A DNA stretch of 44,997 nt from Coprobacter sp. (lineage in GTDB: Bacteria; Bacteroidota; Bacteroidia; Bacteroidales; Coprobacteraceae): the NCBI GenBank assembly GCA_022511245.1, contig JAFLRV010000002.1, positions 1 through 44,997 of the forward strand. Direction: 5' to 3'. Positions 3,080 to 25,700 of this stretch are shown here, piece by piece. How positions within the stretch are numbered: the stretch's first letter is position 1; the number at the start of each line of letters is the position of its first letter. Both the position numbers and the translations under genes were made by a program. The notes under the pieces were generated by a model that ran no database searches, was not told the DNA's origin, and worked only from the letters and a program-made list of their open reading frames with translations.

Positions 3080-6037
3080 TTAATATACCGGTATAAATTC
3101 TATCCGCTGAATATAAATATTCTCTTCAGAACAGATGAGGAAGTCCGTTATATCATCCACCTCACCGGTGTACAATTCGGTATAATTGGCGAAGTTAGTA
3201 TAACTGCCGTCCACCGCTTGCGAGGCAACCTGAATATATTCCTTCGGATTCTGAGATACTTGGGTATTATAATAATAATAACTGAACTTCTCCTCATCGC
3301 CGTACATATATTTCGGTTTATACAGGAAAAGTCTCCGCGTGGAACCCGTTCCGCCGGTATGATAGGCATATACTCTGATATAGCCTTTCTTATTGACCGT
3401 CAGTTGGAAATATCCTCCTTTGTTAGCCTCTATCGTAGAGTACGGGAAGCCGGGCCGGCCCGTCTGGATATAGGAGTTGGAGCCGCTGAACTTACGGCCG
3501 CCCACCACCGTCAATCCGCCATAACCGAGCACCCGGTAAGCCCCGCTGTTTACCAACCCGTCACGGAAATAAGTGGCAATCGTTTCCGAAGAATTGGCCA
3601 TGCCTTCCGTAAAATTCCACGAGGCGTTGTCAAGGATGTGCAGGGCATGAGGCAGCGTACTGCTCTCACCGGGAATATACAGGTCCGGATTGCCGTCGGG
3701 CGTAAACACTACCGTATGATAACCCGCACTCAGCCGAGCCAGATTTTCCCCTTCGACAGGAACCAGATAAATGGCATCGTGGCCGTTGTAGATGCAATGC
3801 TCTGCATTGGTGGCATACAATGTCAGCTCCACATAGCTGTCGCTCGGGTCATAAATCTCTATTTTGAAGCGGTCCCGATAACCGAACCCATCGTCATAAA
3901 ATTTCAGATAAGCGCCCGTCGTTTTCGTGCCGCTCCAGAAGCACTGGTTTTCCGTATAACCGTACTGTTCGTAATAATTTTTCTGGAAATAAGGCGTGTA
4001 GTTATAGATATAATCGTTGTTGTATTTCGTATAGTAGCCGCTGATACTTGACAGATTGATATCATACTGCTGCTTATAGGAAGGCTTTATATCCAGATTG
4101 ACCACATTTCTGAGGTCGGCGGCCTCCTGTTCAAAAGCGATTAACCGGTCTCCCTGCCGGGTGCATCCGTCATAATCGGCAGCCCCCTTCAGGAACATAT
4201 AGAATCCGCGCCGGTTTTTCTCGGGCTGGCTTCTGTCTTCGGCCTCGTAGTTTTGGAAATAGATATAGAAGGTATAATAACCGGGATTCGTTCTGATTTT
4301 AGTGAGGAACTCCGAGAGTGTCATCGGGTTGCTGTCGTAATAGATTTCACTGAATCTGATTACATCGTCCAGCGCCGCATAAACCGACTCGTCGGTATCG
4401 AGTTTATCTCCGCCCTCGTAAATCCAGGGGAAACTATTCGGATTATCGCTGTTTCTTACCCATTCGCCGTAATTGATTTCGCTGCCGTCCAGTTTCTTTT
4501 CCCAATAGCGCCACATGAAGTTCCGGCACTCGTCATAAGTCAGCGTAAACGGAACGCTGGACGGATACTTGGCCTCTATGACTTGTACGCTGTTGTCCCA
4601 GAACTGGCCGGAAACGCCGTTGTTGTGCATAGAAGAGGTCGTCACATTGACCATCAGGTCATTCAGTCCGTTTATCGTTACATTATAAGTGTACCGTGTA
4701 TTCCGGATACGCTGAAAGTCATACAGGTTCCCGCTGGCCGAGCCGTCGGGCCGGCAGGCATAGCCTTCGTGGATGATATATCTTACCGTTCCCTGATATG
4801 AATGCTCCTCGTCAGAGGTGCTGACTTCGGCGCTCAGGATAAAATAAGAGGCGTTATTGTTGTAAGCGTGTTCTGCCGTAGGACACAGTGCTCTGAAAAC
4901 AGCCCCTTCCGGATTTTCCGGATTTTCCGGTTTGGAGAGCATTTCTTCCCGGTAGGCGTGCGGCCGGTTCGTATTTCCGTTGTAGCTCCGCCCCCAGTGC
5001 TTGTTCTCATAATACTGGTAAGAGAACGAATAGACATTGTTCTCGCTGTCGTAACCGGCACGGCTGAATCCCGTTGAAGTATAGCCGTCGTCCAAAAAAT
5101 CGGCGCTGTTGGGTGTCTCCGCCAGATAATCGGACTTCGAAGTACGGGTTCCCAGCGTCATCAATGTAGTATGTTCTTCGAGAAAAACCTCCTTCGGGTT
5201 GTTTACCACCCGATAAGATACATTATTCAAAGTGACGCCCTCTCCCGGAAATATATTCACGTTGATTTCGGCCATCAACCGCTGCAGCCTGACGGCACCT
5301 TCAGGCAATGACATGGCAGCGTAGTTTCCGTCCGTCGATGTCAGCCGGATTTTTATGTCGTCCTGGCTGACGCTTCCATCCGGGCTTACCGTCGTGTGGA
5401 GAGCCGTCCGTGACAACGTATAATAACCCATCATCAAAGGCTTCGGACTTAACCCGTTGCTCTCTTTCGGATTAGCCTTATCGGCTGAGGCCGTATTGAT
5501 TGAAATATCGTGCAAATCCGAAAAGTTTTCAGCTTCTTTCAGCAGGGTCTCCAGCAACTGCTCCTCTCCGCCCTGTTTTCGGGCCGTTATATCCTTGTAG
5601 TTTATCACACCTACGATATATACCTCCGGATGCGAATCATAGTAGTATATAGGTATTTCTTCGGCCACGAAAGGAGTCGTGCTCTTAACGGTATACCGTG
5701 TACCATCAGTCTTTCTCGGTACAGTATCACGGCAACCCACAAGCTCTCCGGTATAGGTGTCGTAAATACCTATCCAGTAGCTGTCGATTTTTATTTCGGC
5801 CTCGTCGCTGAAATCGACCGACCGCGAACGGGCTTCAGTCACCGGATTTCCCAGCGGCACAGACAAAGTGCCGTAAACCCGTTTGCCCAGTTTGACGCCG
5901 TCCGGTTCTATGTCCGGATCGTCCGAACAGCCGGTCAGCACTCCCGCCGGCAACAACAGCAGGAATAGGGCCGCCAATAGCCGGCTGAACTGCAATATGA
6001 TATTATTTTTCATCTTCATAAAATCTCTTCCCCGCAT
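3080..6037 (-). CDS. Large fimbrial-operon lipoprotein (DUF4906-like, putative tip/accessory subunit)
   Basis: 985-aa ORF, signal peptide with lipobox-like VLTGC; position and similarity to the neighbouring paralogue. Start may be at 6019 (MKMKNN). Confidence 0.7.
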   Translation of the reverse strand: MRGRDFMKMKNNIILQFSRLLAALFLLLLPAGVLTGCSDDPDIEPDGVKLGKRVYGTLSVPLGNPVTEARSRSVDFSDEAEIKIDSYWIGIYDTYTGELVGCRDTVPRKTDGTRYTVKSTTPFVAEEIPIYYYDSHPEVYIVGVINYKDITARKQGGEEQLLETLLKEAENFSDLHDISINTASADKANPKESNGLSPKPLMMGYYTLSRTALHTTVSPDGSVSQDDIKIRLTSTDGNYAAMSLPEGAVRLQRLMAEINVNIFPGEGVTLNNVSYRVVNNPKEVFLEEHTTLMTLGTRTSKSDYLAETPNSADFLDDGYTSTGFSRAGYDSENNVYSFSYQYYENKHWGRSYNGNTNRPHAYREEMLSKPENPENPEGAVFRALCPTAEHAYNNNASYFILSAEVSTSDEEHSYQGTVRYIIHEGYACRPDGSASGNLYDFQRIRNTRYTYNVTINGLNDLMVNVTTSSMHNNGVSGQFWDNSVQVIEAKYPSSVPFTLTYDECRNFMWRYWEKKLDGSEINYGEWVRNSDNPNSFPWIYEGGDKLDTDESVYAALDDVIRFSEIYYDSNPMTLSEFLTKIRTNPGYYTFYIYFQNYEAEDRSQPEKNRRGFYMFLKGAADYDGCTRQGDRLIAFEQEAADLRNVVNLDIKPSYKQQYDINLSSISGYYTKYNNDYIYNYTPYFQKNYYEQYGYTENQCFWSGTKTTGAYLKFYDDGFGYRDRFKIEIYDPSDSYVELTLYATNAEHCIYNGHDAIYLVPVEGENLARLSAGYHTVVFTPDGNPDLYIPGESSTLPHALHILDNASWNFTEGMANSSETIATYFRDGLVNSGAYRVLGYGGLTVVGGRKFSGSNSYIQTGRPGFPYSTIEANKGGYFQLTVNKKGYIRVYAYHTGGTGSTRRLFLYKPKYMYGDEEKFSYYYYNTQVSQNPKEYIQVASQAVDGSYTNFANYTELYTGEVDDITDFLICSEENIYIQRIEFIPVY

Positions 6038-12419: not shown

Positions 12420-13880
12420 TTATTTTGAATATTGTTTAGCCAGTTTCAGTTTCTCCAGTTCGCCGGCTGCTGAGGCATGGCCTTTGGCGTCGGCCTGCTC
12501 CATGTACCAGATGGCTTTGCCGTAATCTTTCTGCAGACCGCAGAGGACGCCGCGAACGTAAAGGGCGTCGGCACTGCTGCCGGCACGGCTCAGATAACGT
12601 TCGGCCTGGTTGAGGTCTTCACGCTGCATGGCAGCCGTAGCGGCGTTGAGGATAGCTACCTCGTCGGTCGGGAACATCTTCACGGCCGTCTCCATCACCT
12701 CGTTGTATTCGGGAGTACCCGGTACGAGCGTGCCGGCCAGCAGGTACATCTCGTTCAACGACAGTTTCGAGGGATGCGTACGCATGAGTTCGGCAATTTC
12801 GCTGAGGTCACTGAATCCCCGTATGGTGTATTCGATGCGGTAATCCGAGTGACGCAGACCCGGATATACGGTTTCCAGCAGGAATTGGTACTGTTCGGGG
12901 TAGTCGGTCTGGAGTTTCCAGTTTTTCGCATCCGGCTCCATGTAAGAATCGATAAGAGCCAGAATACCTTCCCGGCCCGGCATGGTCGAATTCACCATAT
13001 ACTCACGGAGACCTTCCCAGTCTTCAGGCTCGTAAGAGGTCTGGATGAAACCGTAAGGGAACATATACAGCTGCTGCACATAGCTCCTCAGGGCTTCGGT
13101 ACGGCCTTTGGCCAGACGGATGTTGTTGTCGTAGGGGCCTTCGGGCGATGCGAAACCTTTGATTGACAGCGATTTCACCGTAATATCCTTGTCGTTGCGA
13201 ACCGAGTCGATGGTAGCGATGATTTTGGCCAGCTCCACCGAGTTGCGGCGGTAGTCGGGATAAATCGTGGTGAGGTTCACCGGGAAATCCACATAGGCAC
13301 GGCCGGCCAGTTCGCGGGTCTTCACCTCTTCGGCAACGGCGGCCTGGAAAATAAATTCCGGCTCGTAAATCACCATTCTGTAGCTGGCCAGATCGGCCGG
13401 AACATACTCGGCCGGAGTGGTACAGCCGGCACAGCCGTAATCGGTGCGCTGCAATATCAGCGTCGAGCCGTTCATCCAGCTGTCATATTCCACCGTCTGC
13501 GCATATTTCACCACGTTCTGACGGTCACCGGCACGCATCGAAATCTCTTCGGAGCCGCTGATCGGTCTCAGACCGTTGCGTTCGAACTGATACCAGCGGG
13601 TGCGGCCATATACCCCCACACCCGGCAGACGGAGCGTGTCCTCGCCGTTTACAATCATCGGCGTAAAAATGGCGGCCCGATTGCTCTTCACCTTTACGTC
13701 CGTAAGGTCTATCTCCATTTTTGCGGTGATTTCATCCAAGTTTCTCACCAGCGAAGTTCTTTTGCAGGCTACGTTTATCGGTTCTCCGAGCTGCTTCACT
13801 TCCTGAGCGGCGGCACTCTGGAACGATATGAATACCGCTGCGGCCGCCAAAATCCCTTTGAAAATATTTTTGCTTCTCAT
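12420..13880 (-). CDS. DUF3868/OmpA-like domain protein of the fimbrial operon
   Basis: 486-aa secreted protein; OmpA-like region (SLSIKGFASPEGPYDNNIRLAKGRTEALRSYV); operon position. Confidence 0.8.
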   Translation of the reverse strand: MRSKNIFKGILAAAAVFISFQSAAAQEVKQLGEPINVACKRTSLVRNLDEITAKMEIDLTDVKVKSNRAAIFTPMIVNGEDTLRLPGVGVYGRTRWYQFERNGLRPISGSEEISMRAGDRQNVVKYAQTVEYDSWMNGSTLILQRTDYGCAGCTTPAEYVPADLASYRMVIYEPEFIFQAAVAEEVKTRELAGRAYVDFPVNLTTIYPDYRRNSVELAKIIATIDSVRNDKDITVKSLSIKGFASPEGPYDNNIRLAKGRTEALRSYVQQLYMFPYGFIQTSYEPEDWEGLREYMVNSTMPGREGILALIDSYMEPDAKNWKLQTDYPEQYQFLLETVYPGLRHSDYRIEYTIRGFSDLSEIAELMRTHPSKLSLNEMYLLAGTLVPGTPEYNEVMETAVKMFPTDEVAILNAATAAMQREDLNQAERYLSRAGSSADALYVRGVLCGLQKDYGKAIWYMEQADAKGHASAAGELEKLKLAKQYSK

Positions 13881-13894
13881 TTTTCAGTCTTTTT

Positions 13895-14482
13895 TTAGAA
13901 TACATAAACCAGATTAAGAGCTGCCTTCGTGGGGCCGTAGTAAGTATGCTTCTGGTCCGAAGCCACCTTCTTCGCACAGCCTTGACAGTTGTAGAGGTCA
14001 TACCAGGTCTGGATGACACCGACGCCGATTTCGGCTTCGAAGTTCCAGTGCTTGTTGAGCACCCAGGTGTAACCGTAGGCAATGCCGCCTCCGACACCCC
14101 AGCCCTGAGCCCGGTAGTCGGTCAGCTGTGAAAAGTTCATGCCCAGAAAATCAGAAGCATGTTTGAAACGTCCCCAGTTGAACTGGCCGCCGATAGCGTG
14201 AATACCGAGAAAATGACCGGCGAATCGGTCGCAGAACCAATACCGGAGTTCAGGCTGAAGCATCCAGTGTTTCCACAACTGCTTGTCTATGTCCCAGTTG
14301 TTAAAATTTCCCGAAATGTCTAACGACCATTTCGGAGCCAACCCAAGCTCGAGGCCCAAGTTTACCGTTGCTGTTGCATCGTACAGGAGATTGGTTTTCA
14401 ATCCTGCCTTTTGCGCTTTCGCATTCATACCGGCAAAAGCTATTAAAACTGCTGCCAGCGTTAATCTGATTGATTTTGACAT
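13895..14482 (-). CDS. DUF3575-domain protein (fimbrial operon first gene)
   Basis: 195 aa, KAGLKTNLLYDATATVNLGLELGLAPKWSLDISGNFNNW typical of DUF3575. Confidence 0.85.
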   Translation of the reverse strand: MSKSIRLTLAAVLIAFAGMNAKAQKAGLKTNLLYDATATVNLGLELGLAPKWSLDISGNFNNWDIDKQLWKHWMLQPELRYWFCDRFAGHFLGIHAIGGQFNWGRFKHASDFLGMNFSQLTDYRAQGWGVGGGIAYGYTWVLNKHWNFEAEIGVGVIQTWYDLYNCQGCAKKVASDQKHTYYGPTKAALNLVYVF

Positions 14483-14492
14483 GGGTATTATT

Positions 14493-15527: not shown

Positions 15528-15559
15528 ATTGGATTATTCTTTTACAAATTCTATATTTG
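15528..15559 (+). promoter_or_regulatory. Putative trp operon promoter
   Basis: ATTG at 15528-15531, 20-nt gap, TATATTTG at 15552-15559; close to TTTG-N19-21-TAnnTTTG. Confidence 0.65.
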
Positions 15560-15578: not shown

Positions 15579-15641
15579 ATGAACGCTGTTTTGACAACTC
15601 AATATTGGTGGTGGCGCAACTTGCAACTGAAAAAGTCGTGA
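15579..15641 (+). CDS. trpL: trp leader peptide MNAVLTTQYWWWRNLQLKKS
   Basis: 20-codon ORF with TGG TGG TGG, about 20 nt downstream of a promoter match, upstream of a terminator hairpin and trpB. Confidence 0.85.
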   Translation: MNAVLTTQYWWWRNLQLKKS

Positions 15642-15687
15642 GCAGCCGCCCTGTATACAGCAAACAATCCGAAACGAAATACAACCC

Positions 15688-15718
15688 AAAGGCCTGTCCG
15701 TCACGACAGGCCTTTTTT
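15688..15718 (+). terminator. trp attenuator terminator
   Basis: AAAGGCCTGTC-CGTCAC-GACAGGCCTTT followed by T run; perfect 11-bp stem between leader peptide and trpB. Confidence 0.85.
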
Positions 15719-15749: not shown

Positions 15750-16937
15750 ATGAAACCATACCCAATCGATTCTGACGGATTTTACGGAGAGTTCGGCGGT
15801 GCCTATATCCCCGAAATACTGTACGGCTGTGTCGAACAGCTGCGCAACAACTACCTTTCCATTATCGAAAGCGACGACTTCAGACAGGAGTTCGACAGCC
15901 TGCTGCGGGACTACGTAGGCCGCCCTTCGCCGCTCTATCTCGCCCGGCGGCTCTCGGAGCGGTACGGATGCCGCATCTACCTCAAACGGGAAGACCTCAA
16001 CCACACGGGCGCCCACAAAATCAACAACACCATCGGCCAGATACTGCTGGCCCGGCGACTCGGCAAGAAACGCATCATTGCCGAAACCGGAGCGGGACAG
16101 CACGGGGTGGCCACAGCGACCGTCTGCGCGCTGATGAACATGGAATGCGTCGTGTACATGGGCAAAACCGACGTGGAGCGGCAGCACATCAACGTGCAGA
16201 AAATGCAGATGCTCGGAGCCACCGTACGCCCCGTCACCTCCGGCAACATGACGCTGAAAGACGCCACCAACGAAGCCATCCGGGACTGGTGCTGCCACCC
16301 GGCCGACACGCACTACATCATCGGCTCCACCGTAGGGCCGCACCCCTACCCCGACATGGTGGCCCGGCTGCAGTCGGTCATCGGGGAGGAGATTAAAAAA
16401 CAGCTCGCCGAAAAAGAGGGACGGGAAAACCCCGATTACCTGATTGCCTGTGTGGGCGGCGGCAGCAATGCCGCCGGTACCATATACCCCTACCTCGACG
16501 ACGACAGGATAAAAATCGTGCTGGCCGAAGCAGGCGGCAAAGGGGTGAACTCCGGCATGTCGGCCGCCACCATACAACTGGGAAAAACCGGCATCATACA
16601 CGGCTCCCGCACGCTGGTCATGCAGAACGAAGACGGACAAATCGAAGAACCCTACTCCATTTCGGCCGGACTCGACTATCCCGGCATCGGCCCCATACAC
16701 GCCCATCTGGCCTCCACCGGACGGGCCCGGATTCTCGCCGTCGATGACGACGAGGCGCTGCAGGCGGCTTTCGAACTGACCCGGCTCGAAGGCATTATCC
16801 CGGCTCTCGAATCGGCACATGCACTGGGGGCACTGCCCAAAATCGGCTTCCGTCCCGGAGAAGTGGCCGTACTCACCGTATCCGGACGGGGAGACAAAGA
16901 CATGAATACCTATATTGATTATTATCATCAAAAATAA
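15750..16937 (+). CDS. trpB: Tryptophan synthase beta chain
   Basis: GEFGGAYIPEILYGC..., LKREDLNHTGAHKINNTIGQ motif. Confidence 0.97.
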   Translation: MKPYPIDSDGFYGEFGGAYIPEILYGCVEQLRNNYLSIIESDDFRQEFDSLLRDYVGRPSPLYLARRLSERYGCRIYLKREDLNHTGAHKINNTIGQILLARRLGKKRIIAETGAGQHGVATATVCALMNMECVVYMGKTDVERQHINVQKMQMLGATVRPVTSGNMTLKDATNEAIRDWCCHPADTHYIIGSTVGPHPYPDMVARLQSVIGEEIKKQLAEKEGRENPDYLIACVGGGSNAAGTIYPYLDDDRIKIVLAEAGGKGVNSGMSAATIQLGKTGIIHGSRTLVMQNEDGQIEEPYSISAGLDYPGIGPIHAHLASTGRARILAVDDDEALQAAFELTRLEGIIPALESAHALGALPKIGFRPGEVAVLTVSGRGDKDMNTYIDYYHQK

Positions 16938-16949
16938 ATACCTGAACAT

Positions 16950-18356
16950 ATGAAACGATATTCCTACCGAACCGTCAGCAAAAAGGTGCTGGGCGACCTG
17001 CATACTCCGGTAAGCATCTACCTGAAAGTACGGGATATGTATTCGCAGTCGGCCCTCATGGAAAGTTCCGACTACCACGCCGGAGAGAACAGCATGTCCT
17101 ATATCGCCCTCTGCCCGCTGGCCAGTATCGGGGTCAACAGCCACCGCTGTACGGCCCTCTATCCCGACGGCAGCAAGGAGACCGGAACCGTCGGCGAAAC
17201 CTTTACCGTAGAGACGGCGATAAACCGCTTTATGGAGAGATTCGACATCGACGGACCCGACAAAAACGTATGCGGACTGTACGGCTACACCACCTTCAAT
17301 GCCGTCAAGTATTTCGAACCGATTCCGGTGAAGGAGAGCCACGACGAACAGAACGACGCCCCCGACCTGCTCTACATCCTGTTCAAATACATCATCGTAT
17401 TCAACCATTTCAAAAACGAACTGACACTGGTCGAGATGCTCTCCGAAGGCGAAGAAAGCTCGCTCAACGAACTGGAAGCCGTTATCGGCAACCGCAATTT
17501 TTCGTCCTACGACTTTGCGCTGAACGGAGCCGAATACAGCACCCTCACCGACGAGGAGCACAAGGCCAACATCCGGAAAGGCATCGCCCACTGCCTGCGG
17601 GGCGATGTGTTCCAGATTGTGCTTTCCAGACGCTTCATCCAGCCCTTCTCCGGAGACGATTTCAAGGTGTACCGGGCACTGCGGTCGGTCAACCCCTCGC
17701 CTTACCTTTTCTATTTCGATTTCGGCGGATACCGCATCTTCGGCTCCTCGCCCGAAACCCACTGCAAAATAGAAAACGGCACGGCCTGTATCGACCCTAT
17801 CGCCGGAACCACCCGGCGCACCGGCGACCTGTGCAAAGACAAGGAACTCACCGAAAAGCTGCTCCGTGACCCGAAAGAGAACGCCGAACACGTCATGCTC
17901 GTCGACCTGGCCCGCAACGACCTGAGCCGCAACTGCCACGACGTCAAGGTGCTCTTTTACAAGGAGCCCCAGTATTACAGCCACGTCATCCACCTGGTAT
18001 CGAGGGTGTGCGGCGTGCTGGACGAAACCGCCGCCCCCGTCAGGACCTTCATCGACACGTTCCCGGCCGGGACGCTGTCGGGTGCACCCAAAGTGCGGGC
18101 CATGCAGCTCATCTCCGAGATAGAGCCGCACAATCGGGGAGCCTACGGCGGCTGTATCGGATTTATCGGGTTCGACGGCAACCTCAATCAGGCCATTACC
18201 ATCCGCACGTTTGTCAGCCGCAACAACGAACTCTGGTACCAGGCCGGAGGAGGCATCGTGGCCCACAGCAACGAAGAAAACGAACTCCAGGAGGTAAACA
18301 ACAAACTGGGCGCACTGAAAAAAGCCATCGACATCGCCGTCACATTAAAAAACTAA
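16950..18356 (+). CDS. trpE: Anthranilate synthase component I
   Basis: DPIAGTTRRTG, FPAGTLSGAPKVRAM, GAYGGCIGF motifs. Confidence 0.96.
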   Translation: MKRYSYRTVSKKVLGDLHTPVSIYLKVRDMYSQSALMESSDYHAGENSMSYIALCPLASIGVNSHRCTALYPDGSKETGTVGETFTVETAINRFMERFDIDGPDKNVCGLYGYTTFNAVKYFEPIPVKESHDEQNDAPDLLYILFKYIIVFNHFKNELTLVEMLSEGEESSLNELEAVIGNRNFSSYDFALNGAEYSTLTDEEHKANIRKGIAHCLRGDVFQIVLSRRFIQPFSGDDFKVYRALRSVNPSPYLFYFDFGGYRIFGSSPETHCKIENGTACIDPIAGTTRRTGDLCKDKELTEKLLRDPKENAEHVMLVDLARNDLSRNCHDVKVLFYKEPQYYSHVIHLVSRVCGVLDETAAPVRTFIDTFPAGTLSGAPKVRAMQLISEIEPHNRGAYGGCIGFIGFDGNLNQAITIRTFVSRNNELWYQAGGGIVAHSNEENELQEVNNKLGALKKAIDIAVTLKN

Positions 18357-18369
18357 CCAGCCAACAGAC

Positions 18370-18939
18370 ATGGAAAAGATTCTGATATTCGACAATTACG
18401 ACTCGTTCACCTACAATCTGGTGCATCTGGTCAAAGAACTCTCCCCGTCCCGTATCGAAGTACACCGCAACGACCGCATCCGGCTCGAAGAGGTGGAAAA
18501 ATTCGACAAAATCATCCTCTCTCCGGGACCCGGCATTCCCGAAGAGGCCGGACTGCTGCTGCCGCTCATCCGGACCTATGCCCCCGTCAAAAAGATACTG
18601 GGCGTATGTCTGGGTCATCAGGCCATCGCCGAAGCCTTCGGCGGAACGCTGACCAATCTCTCCGAAGTGTTTCACGGCGTACAGACGCCGATACGCATTA
18701 CCGCCGGCGACCGGCTGTTTCAGGGGATGAACCGGGAAATACCCGTAGGCCGGTACCACTCCTGGATTGTCAGCCGGGAAAACCTGCCGGAGGAGCTGGA
18801 AGTCACCGCAGAAGACGCAGAGGGACGCATCATGGCGCTCCGGCACCGGACATACGACGTGCGGGGCATCCAGTTTCACCCCGAATCGGTACTCACGCCC
18901 GACGGCCGCACGATGATTCAAAATTTCCTGACCGATTAA
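18370..18939 (+). CDS. trpG: Anthranilate synthase component II (glutamine amidotransferase)
   Basis: ILIFDNYDSFTYNLVHL, SPGPGIP, GVCLGHQAIAE, GIQFHPESVLT. Confidence 0.96.
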   Translation: MEKILIFDNYDSFTYNLVHLVKELSPSRIEVHRNDRIRLEEVEKFDKIILSPGPGIPEEAGLLLPLIRTYAPVKKILGVCLGHQAIAEAFGGTLTNLSEVFHGVQTPIRITAGDRLFQGMNREIPVGRYHSWIVSRENLPEELEVTAEDAEGRIMALRHRTYDVRGIQFHPESVLTPDGRTMIQNFLTD

Positions 18940-18949
18940 AAGACTCATT

Positions 18950-19945
18950 ATGAAAGATATACTGTACAAACTGTTCGAACACCGCTATCTCGACCGGGCC
19001 GAAGCCCGCCGCATCCTGCAAAACATAGCCGCCGGCCGGTACAACGACACCCAGATAGCCTCGCTGATTACCGTATTCCTCATGCGCAACATTTCGGTTG
19101 AAGAACTGACGGGGTTCCGGGAAGCACTGCTCGAAATGCGGGTTCCCGTCGACCTCTCCGAATACTGCCCCATCGACATCGTCGGTACCGGCGGCGACGG
19201 GAAAAATACCTTCAACATCTCCACCACCGCCTGCTTCGTGGTGGCCGGAGCCGGTTATCCGGTCGTCAAACACGGCAACTACGGAGCCACTTCGGTGAGC
19301 GGAGCCAGCAACGTCATGGAACAGCACGGGGTCAAGTTCACCACCGACACCGGCACACTGAAAAAGAGCATGGAGGAGTGCCGCATCGCTTACCTGCATG
19401 CACCGCTGTTCAACCCGGCACTGAAAGTCGTCGCCCCCGTACGCAAAGCACTGGCCGTGCGCACCTTCTTCAACATGCTGGGACCGCTGGTCAATCCGGC
19501 GATGCCGGCCTATCAGCTGCTGGGAGTGTATAACCTGCCGCTGCTCCGGCTCTACTCGTACACTTTTCAGGAGAGCAACACCCGGTTTGCCGTCGTGCAC
19601 AGTCTCGACGGCTACGACGAAATCTCCCTGACCTCCCAGTTCAAGGTAGCATCGTCCCGGAACGAAAAAATCTATCAACCCGAAGAACTCGGATTCCGCC
19701 GCTGCTCCGAAGCGGAGCTCGAAGGCGGAGACACCCCCAAAGCGGCCGCCCGCATCTTCGACAACGTGCTGCGGGGAACGGCCACCGAAGCCCAGACGAA
19801 CTGCGTCATCGCCAACGCCGCTTTTGCCATACAGGTCATCGAAAGCGACAAAAGCATCGGCGAGTGCATCGACATCGCCAGAGAATCGCTCGACAGCGGA
19901 AAGGCATACCGGACATTCCGGAAATTCATACAAATCAACAGCTGA
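18950..19945 (+). CDS. trpD: Anthranilate phosphoribosyltransferase
   Basis: DIVGTGGDGKNTFNISTTA, KHGNYGATSVSGASNVMEQ. Confidence 0.96.
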   Translation: MKDILYKLFEHRYLDRAEARRILQNIAAGRYNDTQIASLITVFLMRNISVEELTGFREALLEMRVPVDLSEYCPIDIVGTGGDGKNTFNISTTACFVVAGAGYPVVKHGNYGATSVSGASNVMEQHGVKFTTDTGTLKKSMEECRIAYLHAPLFNPALKVVAPVRKALAVRTFFNMLGPLVNPAMPAYQLLGVYNLPLLRLYSYTFQESNTRFAVVHSLDGYDEISLTSQFKVASSRNEKIYQPEELGFRRCSEAELEGGDTPKAAARIFDNVLRGTATEAQTNCVIANAAFAIQVIESDKSIGECIDIARESLDSGKAYRTFRKFIQINS

Positions 19946-19950
19946 CCGCC

Positions 19951-20736
19951 ATGAACATACTGGAACAAATCATCGCCCACAAACGCAACGAGGTCGAACA
20001 GCTCCGGAAAGCGGCCAACATAGACCGGCTGCTCGACAAGATGCCGGAGCACTGCCCCGTCCGCTCCATGAAAACGGTACTGGCCCGGTCGGCCACCGGC
20101 ATCATCGCCGAGTTCAAACGCAAATCGCCCTCCAAAGGGTGGATTCATCCCGACGCCCGTGTCGAGGAGGTGGTGCCGCTGTATGAGAAAGGCGGGGCGA
20201 CAGCCTCTTCGGTGCTGACCGACGAACGCTTTTTCGGCGGAACGCCCGACGACCTCCGCCGGGCACGGGAATGCGCCGGCATCCCCCTCCTGCGGAAAGA
20301 TTTCATCGTCGACGAATACCAGCTCTACCAGGCCCGTGCACTGGGAGCCGATGCCGTGCTGCTGATTGCATCGGCCCTCTCTCCGGAGACCTGCGCCCGG
20401 TTCACCGGGCTGGCACACCGGCTGGGACTTGAAGTGCTGCTGGAACTGCACGGGGAGGAGGAACTCGGTTATCTCGAAAACAGCGAAGCCGACATGATAG
20501 GGGTCAACAACCGCAACCTGACCACCTTCGTCACGGACGTAACCCACTCTTTCCGGATGATAGAGCGGCTGCCTGCCGAAAAAATCTGCATCTCGGAAAG
20601 CGGCATTTCCGCTCCCGATACGGTACGCCGGCTGCGGGAGGCCGGTTTTCGGGGATTTCTTATGGGAGAAAATTTCATGAAACACGAACAACCCGGAGCG
20701 GCACTGGCCGACTTCATCAAACAATTGGAAAAATGA
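19951..20736 (+). CDS. trpC: Indole-3-glycerol phosphate synthase
   Basis: MNILEQIIAHKRNEVEQ, IIAEFKRKSPSKGWI, GVNNRNLTTF. Confidence 0.96.
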   Translation: MNILEQIIAHKRNEVEQLRKAANIDRLLDKMPEHCPVRSMKTVLARSATGIIAEFKRKSPSKGWIHPDARVEEVVPLYEKGGATASSVLTDERFFGGTPDDLRRARECAGIPLLRKDFIVDEYQLYQARALGADAVLLIASALSPETCARFTGLAHRLGLEVLLELHGEEELGYLENSEADMIGVNNRNLTTFVTDVTHSFRMIERLPAEKICISESGISAPDTVRRLREAGFRGFLMGENFMKHEQPGAALADFIKQLEK

Positions 20737-21344
20737 TTGTCAAAGTTTGCGGAATGCGGGACGCCGACAATATCCGCCAAATCGAACCGCTCGGCATCCG
20801 GCTGATGGGATTTGTCTTTTATCCCCCCTCTCCCCGATACGCCGGAGAGCGGCCGGTATACCTCCCGGAAAACATCCTGAAAACGGGAGTATTCGTCAAC
20901 GCCGGATGGGATGAGATACAAGAAAAGAGAGTGCTTTTCGACCTCGATTACATACAGCTTCACGGCGGGGAATCGCCCGATTTGTGCGTCCGGCTGCGGG
21001 AAAGCGGCGTAAAAGTCATCAAAGCCTTTCCGGTGAAAACCGCCGAAGACCTGATACCCTGCCGGCATTACGCCGACGGATGCGACCTGTTCCTGTTCGA
21101 CACCCGTACCGAAGAGTACGGCGGCTCCGGACGCTCCTTTTCGTGGTCGGTGCTGGAATCCTATACCGGGCCGGTTCCGTTCCTGCTGAGCGGAGGCATC
21201 GGACCGGACGACATCGACAAAATCAACGCATTCCGGCATCCCTGCTGGGCCGGAGTCGACCTCAACAGCCGGTTCGAATCCCGTCCCGGCATCAAAAACC
21301 CGGAACAGCTGAAACACTTTATCGAAAATCTGAAAAAACTATAA
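20733..21344 (+). CDS. trpF: Phosphoribosylanthranilate isomerase
   Basis: VKVCGMRDADNI, YIQLHGGESPDLC, FLLSGGIGPDDI; overlaps trpC by 4 bp. Confidence 0.95.
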   Translation: MIVKVCGMRDADNIRQIEPLGIRLMGFVFYPPSPRYAGERPVYLPENILKTGVFVNAGWDEIQEKRVLFDLDYIQLHGGESPDLCVRLRESGVKVIKAFPVKTAEDLIPCRHYADGCDLFLFDTRTEEYGGSGRSFSWSVLESYTGPVPFLLSGGIGPDDIDKINAFRHPCWAGVDLNSRFESRPGIKNPEQLKHFIENLKKL

Positions 21345-22127
21345 ATGACCATGAACAGAATCAATACGCTTTTCAATCAAAAGAAACAGGATATTCTCTC
21401 GGTCTACTTCACCGCCGGATATCCCCGTACCGACAGCACCACAGACATCCTGCACGAGCTGCAAAGACAGGGGGTCGATATGGTCGAAATCGGCATCCCC
21501 TTCTCCGACCCTATGGCCGACGGACCGGTCATACAGGCCTCCTCGACACAGGCTCTGAAAAACGGCATGTCGCTCAAAAAACTTTTCAGCCAGCTGGAGA
21601 ACATCCGAGTCGGAATCAACATACCGCTCATCCTGATGGGCTATCTGAATCCCATCATGCAGTACGGATTCGAAAATTTCTGCCGGGACTGCGCCGAACG
21701 GGGCATCGACGGCATGATTATCCCCGACCTGCCGTTCCGGGACTACCTCGAATCGTTCAAGCCGGTAGCCGACCGGTATGACCTGCGTATCATCATGCTC
21801 ATCACGCCGGAGACATCGGAAGAGCGCATCCGGTTTATCGACGAACACACCGACGGGTTTATCTATATGGTGTCATCGGCCTCCACTACCGGAGCGCAAA
21901 GCAGTTTCGCCGGAGCCAAAGAGGCCTACTTCCGCCACATCGAAGGGATGCAGCTGCGCAATCCCCGACTGGTGGGATTCGGCATCTCCAACCGGGAGAC
22001 GTTCGAGACGGCCTGCCACCACGCTTCGGGCGGCATCATCGGAAGCAAATTCATTGAACTGCTGCAGGAAAAACCGGATATAGAAACGGCGGTAGGCGAA
22101 CTGCTGCACCGCATCGGACGGCACTAA
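21345..22127 (+). CDS. trpA: Tryptophan synthase alpha chain
   Basis: [37 protein letters not shown]. Confidence 0.96.
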
Positions 22128-23813: not shown

Positions 23814-25700
23814 ATGAAAACAACCCGAATTTTCACCACCACAGCCATGACACTTCTTTTAATCTTTGTTTCCGCATGGGGACTGATGGCCTCCGCACGG
23901 GCCGAAATACCCGATTTCAAGGTGTCGGGCATCGTGACCGACGCCTCGACCGGACAGCCGCTCGAAGGAGTGTCCGTCACTATCGCCGGAACGCCCGTAT
24001 GCGTCCTGACCGAACCCGACGGCAGCTATACGCTGACAACGAAAGAAAACTCGATGCTGCAATTCGCCAAACCGGGATTCAAAACCCGGAAAGTACGGGC
24101 CGACCGCTCCCCGCTGAACATCGGGCTGCAACCGCTGTCCCGTACGGTCGCCGAAGCGGAGGCGTGCATCATGATGGACAGAGTGGCGGAAAAGCGCTGC
24201 GACGTCACCGCCCGTCACCAGATGAAAATGAACTGTATCGTTCCGCAAGCCGCCTGTATGGGAATGGTTTCGGCCGAAGAGTACGGCTCGTTTGCCGAAA
24301 ACCGGTTCCTGACGCCGCTTAAAAATCCGCTTTCGACCTTTTCGACAGATGTCGACGGGGCCTCCTACGCCAACATGCGCCGGTTTGTCAATCGGGGGGA
24401 ACTGCCGCCGCAGGATGCCGTGCGGGCCGAAGAGTTTGTCAATTACTTCTCCTACGACTACCCCCGTCCGCAAGGCAATGACCCGGTACGCATCAGCGTC
24501 GAAGCGGGGGCCTGCCCTTGGGATGAAACGCACCGGCTGGTGCGCATCGGCATCAAAGCCAGAGAGATACCCGCCGAAAGTCTGCCCGCCGCCAACTTCG
24601 TCTTTTTAATCGACGTATCCGGCTCGATGAGCGGCGCCAACCGGCTCGGGCTGGTGAAATCGTCGCTCAAACTGCTGGTCAACAACCTGCGGGACAAAGA
24701 CCGGGTGGCCATCGTCACCTATGCCAACAACACCGCCGAAGCGCTCCCCTCCACACCCGGCAGTGAAAAACAGAAAATCAAGGATGCCATCGAGAATCTG
24801 GAGGCCGGAGGAGCCACCGCCGGAGGAGCCGGCATACAGATGGCCTACAAAATCGCCGAGAAAAATTTCATTGCCGACGGCAACAACCGCATCATCCTCT
24901 GCACCGACGGCGATTTCAATGTCGGCGTCAGCGACGATCGGGGGCTGGAAAACCTCATCTCCGCCAAACGGAAAACAGGAGTCTGCCTGACGGTATTAGG
25001 ATACGGCATGGGGAACTACAAAGACCGCAAAATGCAGATTCTGGCCGAAAAAGGCAACGGGAATCATGCCTATATCGACAACCTGCAAGAGGCCAACAAG
25101 GTGCTGGTCAGCGAGTTCGGCAGCACCCTTTACACGGTGGCCAAAGACGTAAAACTGCAAGTCGAGTTCAATCCGGCCAAAGTGGCGTCGTACCGGTTAG
25201 TAGGATACGAAAGCCGGTTGCTGAACGACGAAGATTTCAACGACGACACACGGGATGCCGGCGAGATGGGTGCCGGACACACCGTAACGGCTCTTTACGA
25301 AATCATACCGGCCGACGGCAAACGCAAGATACAGGACCTGCCGGGCAGCATAGACCCGCTCAGATACCAGCAGACCGAACCGGCCGCCCACCCGTCCCGG
25401 CTGATTGCCTCGCCGGAAATGCTGACCGTCAAGCTACGTTACAAACGGCCCGGTGAAGAAAAGAGCCGGTTGCTCGAACAGCCGCTGACCGACAACGGCG
25501 GTGACAACGTGTCGCCCGACTTCCGCTTTGCATCGGCCGTTGCGATGTATGCCCAGCTGTTGCGCGACTCCGATTTCAAAGGGAACGGCTCCTACGAAAA
25601 AGTAATCCGAATCGCCCGGCAGGGTCTCGACAACGACCCGGAGGGTTACCGGCGGGAATTTATCCGGCTGGTTCAGACGGCATCGGGACTCGGAGAATAA
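23814..25700 (+). CDS. VWA-domain protein (YfbK/DUF3520-like) with N-terminal CarboxypepD-reg-like domain
   Basis: VSGIVTDASTGQPLEGVSVTI...; FVFLIDVSGSMSGANRLGLVKSSLKLLV; TLYTVAKDVKLQVEFNP. Confidence 0.9.
   Translation: MKTTRIFTTTAMTLLLIFVSAWGLMASARAEIPDFKVSGIVTDASTGQPLEGVSVTIAGTPVCVLTEPDGSYTLTTKENSMLQFAKPGFKTRKVRADRSPLNIGLQPLSRTVAEAEACIMMDRVAEKRCDVTARHQMKMNCIVPQAACMGMVSAEEYGSFAENRFLTPLKNPLSTFSTDVDGASYANMRRFVNRGELPPQDAVRAEEFVNYFSYDYPRPQGNDPVRISVEAGACPWDETHRLVRIGIKAREIPAESLPAANFVFLIDVSGSMSGANRLGLVKSSLKLLVNNLRDKDRVAIVTYANNTAEALPSTPGSEKQKIKDAIENLEAGGATAGGAGIQMAYKIAEKNFIADGNNRIILCTDGDFNVGVSDDRGLENLISAKRKTGVCLTVLGYGMGNYKDRKMQILAEKGNGNHAYIDNLQEANKVLVSEFGSTLYTVAKDVKLQVEFNPAKVASYRLVGYESRLLNDEDFNDDTRDAGEMGAGHTVTALYEIIPADGKRKIQDLPGSIDPLRYQQTEPAAHPSRLIASPEMLTVKLRYKRPGEEKSRLLEQPLTDNGGDNVSPDFRFASAVAMYAQLLRDSDFKGNGSYEKVIRIARQGLDNDPEGYRREFIRLVQTASGLGE

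Follow-up and report, generated by a model that had tools for sequence, protein, structure and literature searches.

A very probable ribosome-mediated attenuator of the Bacteroid-trp family ahead of trpBEGDCFA in Coprobacter sp., with a predicted antiterminator strand that contains the leader stop codon

Some Bacteroidetes attenuators were reportedly predicted by Vitreschak et al., writing in FEMS Microbiol Lett in 2004. In 2010 Weinberg et al. included Bacteroid-trp among the probable cis-regulatory RNAs of Bacteroidetes (PMC2864571), and elsewhere the motif was compared to the E. coli trp leader and noted upstream of the trp operon of Flavobacterium psychrophilum (PMC6414381), an organism with signs of leader-peptide attenuation and with predicted attenuators (PMC9723704). 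The attenuators of F. psychrophilum share phylum and type of control with the locus described here and, in the case of Bacteroid-trp, also its position at the trp operon; the main texts of PMC9723704 and PMC6414381 give no switching structure. A description of the antiterminator was likewise not found in the main texts of the literature searched, and the supplement to Weinberg et al. (2010) may describe more.

The locus lies in a window of 44,997 nucleotides (the whole stretch of Coprobacter sp. DNA that was analysed), and all its features given below are on the forward strand. A Bacteroidetes-type promoter with the -7 element TATATTTG (15552-15559) and a weak -33 element (TTG at 15529-15531) precedes a leader ORF (15579-15641, ATG at 15579), recognized from the sequence and its conservation in relatives, which encodes the 20-residue peptide MNAVLTTQYWWWRNLQLKKS followed by a stop codon and contains three putatively regulatory Trp codons in a row (TGG TGG TGG, 15606-15614). 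Downstream, sequence and folding indicate an intrinsic terminator (15688-15718) with arms at 15688-15698 and 15705-15715, a 6-nt loop and a T-run to 15718, whose perfect 11-bp hairpin has a predicted stability of -17.9 kcal/mol. The operon trpBEGDCFA (15750-22127) follows, with trpB at 15750-16937, trpE at 16950-18356, trpG at 18370-18939, trpD at 18950-19945, trpC at 19951-20736, trpF at 20733-21344 and trpA at 21345-22127. Promoter, WWW leader ORF, terminator and operon all lie where the initial annotation had placed them, as read from the sequence and, for the gene order, supported by NCBIfam. The fold of the leader region is better than that of 200 out of 200 dinucleotide shuffles (z = -3.1).

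When compared with Rfam RF01692 (Bacteroid-trp), the leader of the window gave a full-length match (1-131) of 37.7 bits with E = 0.003-0.005, which is below the curated cut-off of 49 bits, so that this copy is missed by default scans. The homology is nevertheless clear, because the leaders of two loci from the same genus (L083 and L085) match RF01692 at 78 bits, above the cut-off. Among 14 related Trp loci tested, eight were above the threshold and six, like the window copy, are missed by the current model. Judged by sequence homology, the leader is a diverged member of the known family. This settles the doubt of the initial annotation as to how far attenuation had been described in this lineage, the element belonging to RF01692, which is listed in PMC2864571.

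For comparison, trpB loci were fetched from 80 genomes and from four of the same genus; alignment A1 comprises 42 sequences, and model searches yielded a larger set, with 105 distinct leaders. The nearest relatives belong to Bacteroidales. In nearly all the Bacteroidales loci fetched, trpB is preceded at a distance of about 110-280 nt by a leader with two or three consecutive Trp codons, after which comes a hairpin, and TAnnTTTG, the -7 element, stands at similar spacing upstream of the leader in 44 out of 46 cases, which together argue that the arrangement of leader and hairpin is not due to chance. The relatives thus keep the Trp-rich ORF and the hairpin, as would be expected of the attenuator proposed initially. 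The ORF is kept ahead of trpB or trpE throughout Bacteroidales as well as in further families of the class, and its in-frame Trp codons persist even where they are interrupted, as in WHWH (L124), WRWRW (L130) and WSW (L129). All 11 pairs of the terminator show double changes among the relatives. In some Prevotella-like genomes (L037, L039, L040, L045 and L046) the hairpin is conserved without a good U-tract; termination may there be weak or be brought about by other means.

A covariance model was built from the terminator and the protector hairpin P2 (see below) and used to search genomes. In the genome of the window it found one copy of the attenuator and no others, the next best match having E = 2.7. 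At E up to 0.01 there were matches in 186 of the 295 genomes and 124 of the 183 genera of a sample of the order, and at the stricter E of 1e-4 in 62 of the 297 genomes of a sample of the phylum. Of 107 matches examined (106 from relatives plus the window), 101 precede trpE (56), trpB (36), trpB2 (7) or trpD (2), while the remaining six include several that resemble trpB read in another frame; outside Bacteroidales the matches examined are mostly before trpE. In the first loci fetched from Flavobacteria and Cytophagia (L049-L082), trpB was not preceded by a comparable trp leader. Within Bacteroidales the element is widespread; it is also present elsewhere in the class and is sometimes tandem: in L120-L125 and L139 two complete Trp attenuators, each with leader and terminator, stand in series ahead of trpE or trpB, the first leader of L124 being the one that reads WHWH. 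In L129, L130, L133 and others the same architecture precedes a gene for a TrpB-like protein (TrpB2), with the antiterminator strand almost wholly rewritten.

The initial annotation had identified no strong antiterminator by eye. A clear one exists, and it was noticed on reading the aligned leaders: GTCGTGA (15635-15641), which includes the stop codon of the leader (15639-15641), is complementary to TCACGAC (15701-15707), formed by the terminator loop and the first 3 nt of the 3' arm. Within the whole 45-kb window the sequence is restricted to these two places. Taken alone, the window would show a perfect 7-bp match of this sort by chance with a probability of about 0.8%; the case for the antiterminator rests on the relatives. 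In alignment A1 the five core pairs are formed in 42 of 42 sequences, four pairs of the helix show double changes, and in the proposed register 89% of the cells are paired, compared to 22-54% in slid registers. In the first set, permuted partners equalled the native ones in 4 out of 10000 cases; among the 105 leaders, the covariation has z = -13.6 (0/5000 permutations). Some helices have been rewritten wholesale with the complementarity kept, namely to CTGTGAA:TTCACAG (L129), TTGTAA:TTACAA (L130), CCGTGAG:CTCACGG (L120) and TCGGGAG:CTCCCGA (L160). The stop codon overlaps or is near this strand, from here on called strand B, in 45 of 46 leaders.

Strand B (15634-15642) is at the same time the 3' arm of P2, a protector hairpin whose 5' arm (strand A, 15620-15628) starts a few nucleotides beyond the last Trp codon. 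P2 is in turn enclosed, together with the Trp codons, by a closing helix P1, in which the codons immediately preceding the Trp run (15585-15589) pair with sequence past the stop codon (15657-15661). In the window, the pairing probabilities in the absence of a ribosome are 0.96 for P2 and 0.91 for P1. Both helices covary among the 105 leaders, P2 with z = -9.7 and P1 with z = -14.7 (0/5000 permutations in each case; z about -9 for P1 in the first set), as does the antiterminator, so that the covariation sought across related genomes was found for all three; RNAalifold independently recovers P2 and the terminator. With the terminator as positive control z was -20.8, and four negative-control pairings were flat (z from -1.1 to +0.6); the permutations disrupt clade structure along with pairing, and the flat negative controls argue that clade structure does not cause the signal. 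That strand B has two mutually exclusive covarying partners is the hallmark of an attenuator. The 1:2 pairing of GGTGGC with GCCGCC considered initially does form in the predicted fold of the window and is almost without comparative support (z = -2.1, where the real helices reach -9.7 to -14.7); as a conserved helix it was rejected.

It is possible, if rather improbable, that within a ribosome-mediated attenuator the main task of P1 and P2 is not protection but to make RNA polymerase pause and so to synchronise the ribosome. The 1:2 hairpin of E. coli serves as both pause signal and protector, and P1 has the Trp codons inside it and shows strong covariation, features that would hardly be required for protection alone. 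P2, however, uses exactly the strand that the antiterminator needs, as a protector should. The two roles are compatible.

Strand B might also be read according to the geometry of the Proteobacteria. There the terminator's 5' arm is bound (2:3 pairing) by a strand located at the stop codon or beyond it, and the complementarity of GTCGTGA and TCACGAC would be incidental. Such is the design of E. coli, whose strand 2 favours the 5' arm when given the same treatment (-10.2 versus -4.9 kcal/mol), and in Bacteroides, too, the 5' arm has a potential partner (-13 kcal/mol) in the stretch that follows strand B. Among the 105 leaders, however, strand B pairs with the 5' arm no better than expected (z = +2.5, with 4974 of 5000 permutations as good or better) and the region downstream of it with z = -1.1, as opposed to z = -13.6 for loop plus 3' arm. 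An antiterminator against the 5' arm was therefore rejected, and we regard this geometry as very unlikely here.

How a switch through strand B could work was modelled by snapshot folding, in which the transcript is folded up to the emergence of the antiterminator partner with the ribosome footprints masked. For the window, the probability of the antiterminator was 0.00 without a ribosome; with a ribosome stalled at the first Trp codon it was 0.99, with one stalled at the last it was 1.00, and with one at the stop codon it was again 0.00. The medians for 46 leaders, in the same order, were 0.00, 0.93, 0.97 and 0.00. The zero values at the stop codon follow in part from the procedure itself, which masks strand B there. 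Two leaders (L044 and L045) showed no switching in this model. At equilibrium, with the whole 3' arm out, the full terminator (-24.2 kcal/mol) beats the antiterminator (-16.4 kcal/mol) even in the stalled state, from which it follows that the switch would have to be kinetic.

In the mechanism that we propose, a ribosome would translate the 20-codon peptide while RNA polymerase transcribes the leader. If charged tRNA-Trp is plentiful, the ribosome would reach the stop codon and, since the antiterminator strand embeds this codon, mask strand B directly; with the ribosome departed or never loaded, strand B would be held in P2, closed by P1. In either case the terminator could form and transcription would end ahead of trpB. 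With Trp-tRNA scarce, the ribosome would stall at one of the three Trp codons and cover strand A, the 5' arm of P1 or both; the freed strand B could then capture the terminator loop and the start of the 3' arm once these have emerged, the terminator would fail to nucleate in time, and the operon would be transcribed. Actual termination, its dependence on Trp, the stalling of the ribosome and the kinetic control are what we infer from the computations. Conservation, covariation and snapshot folding make ribosome-mediated trp attenuation the best supported reading, and we consider it highly probable that the leader attenuates transcription of the trp operon in this way, as a diverged Bacteroid-trp RNA that switches by means of strand B as proposed.

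That the Trp-rich ORF is there by chance, next to a plain terminator or an attenuator sensing by other means (T-box, TRAP protein, riboswitch), is hardly credible: a strong terminator ahead of trpB alone would lower expression and nothing specific favours this reading, whereas an Rfam search of the leader gave no meaningful score for T-box, riboswitch or other families except Bacteroid-trp, a TRAP array is absent because the leader has one GAG and zero TAG triplets, and the Trp codons are conserved jointly with the position of the stop and the helices. Elsewhere in the window, at 4335-4365 of the reverse strand, there is an Rfam match to IRE_II (31.5 bits, threshold 30), which in a bacterium is most likely due to chance.

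Leaders of other amino acid pathways were seen on the way. The genome of the window has a His-rich leader MILVALHHAHHHHLTL with a terminator-like hairpin ahead of hisG (L220, contig C203, upstream of 9629), which by eye copies the 3' arm of its terminator, the classical geometry. An Asn-rich leader (NNNQNNSSNNN) with a terminator precedes asnA (aspartate-ammonia ligase) in L137 (about 13339-13462 of G120:C1047, reverse strand) and is possibly an asparagine attenuator; no such Asn-rich leader was found upstream of asnA in the genome of the window (L219). A Cys-rich leader (CICCCC) with a terminator stands ahead of a cysE-like serine O-acetyltransferase gene in L128 (about 14345-14487 of G276:C135), and an Ile/Leu-rich one (ILLSILIILLG), also with a terminator, ahead of leuA in L136 (about 23907-24061 of G027:C40, reverse strand).

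The kind of attenuator and the family are already known; the geometry of the antiterminator is a new detail. With RF01692 the locus shares its occurrence in Bacteroidetes ahead of trp genes, the leader with Trp codons and, in the consensus, the same closing helix and protector hairpin; the Rfam model differs in ending at the 5' arm of the terminator, without terminator and antiterminator. That the trp attenuators of Bacteroidetes constitute a class distinct in structure, where the strand with the stop codon copies the apex of the 5' arm of the terminator and, capturing loop and 3' arm, blocks the terminator, and of which some species stack two, is a proposition for which we see an even chance. 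If it is true and undescribed, ribosome-mediated attenuation would have a further variant, in use across a phylum. The mechanism proposed here gives a testable model to a motif whose switching mechanism is missing from the main texts found, in a dominant phylum of the gut, where the supply of tryptophan matters to host and microbes.

With trpL of E. coli the locus has in common a leader peptide with Trp codons, a terminator, a mutually exclusive antiterminator and a protector, and in both the terminator is more stable than the antiterminator at equilibrium (for the E. coli trp leader, the same treatment gave -21.4 kcal/mol at full length and -15.6 kcal/mol for the antiterminator before the 3' arm emerges). 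The initial annotation had called the attenuator classical-looking, which holds for the switching logic but not for the geometry. In E. coli the partner of the switch strand is the terminator's 5' arm, whereas here strand B contains the leader stop codon, imitates the 5' arm and pairs with the loop and the 3' arm, and there is an additional helix, P1, that closes around the Trp codons. The logic would be the same as in E. coli, wired differently.
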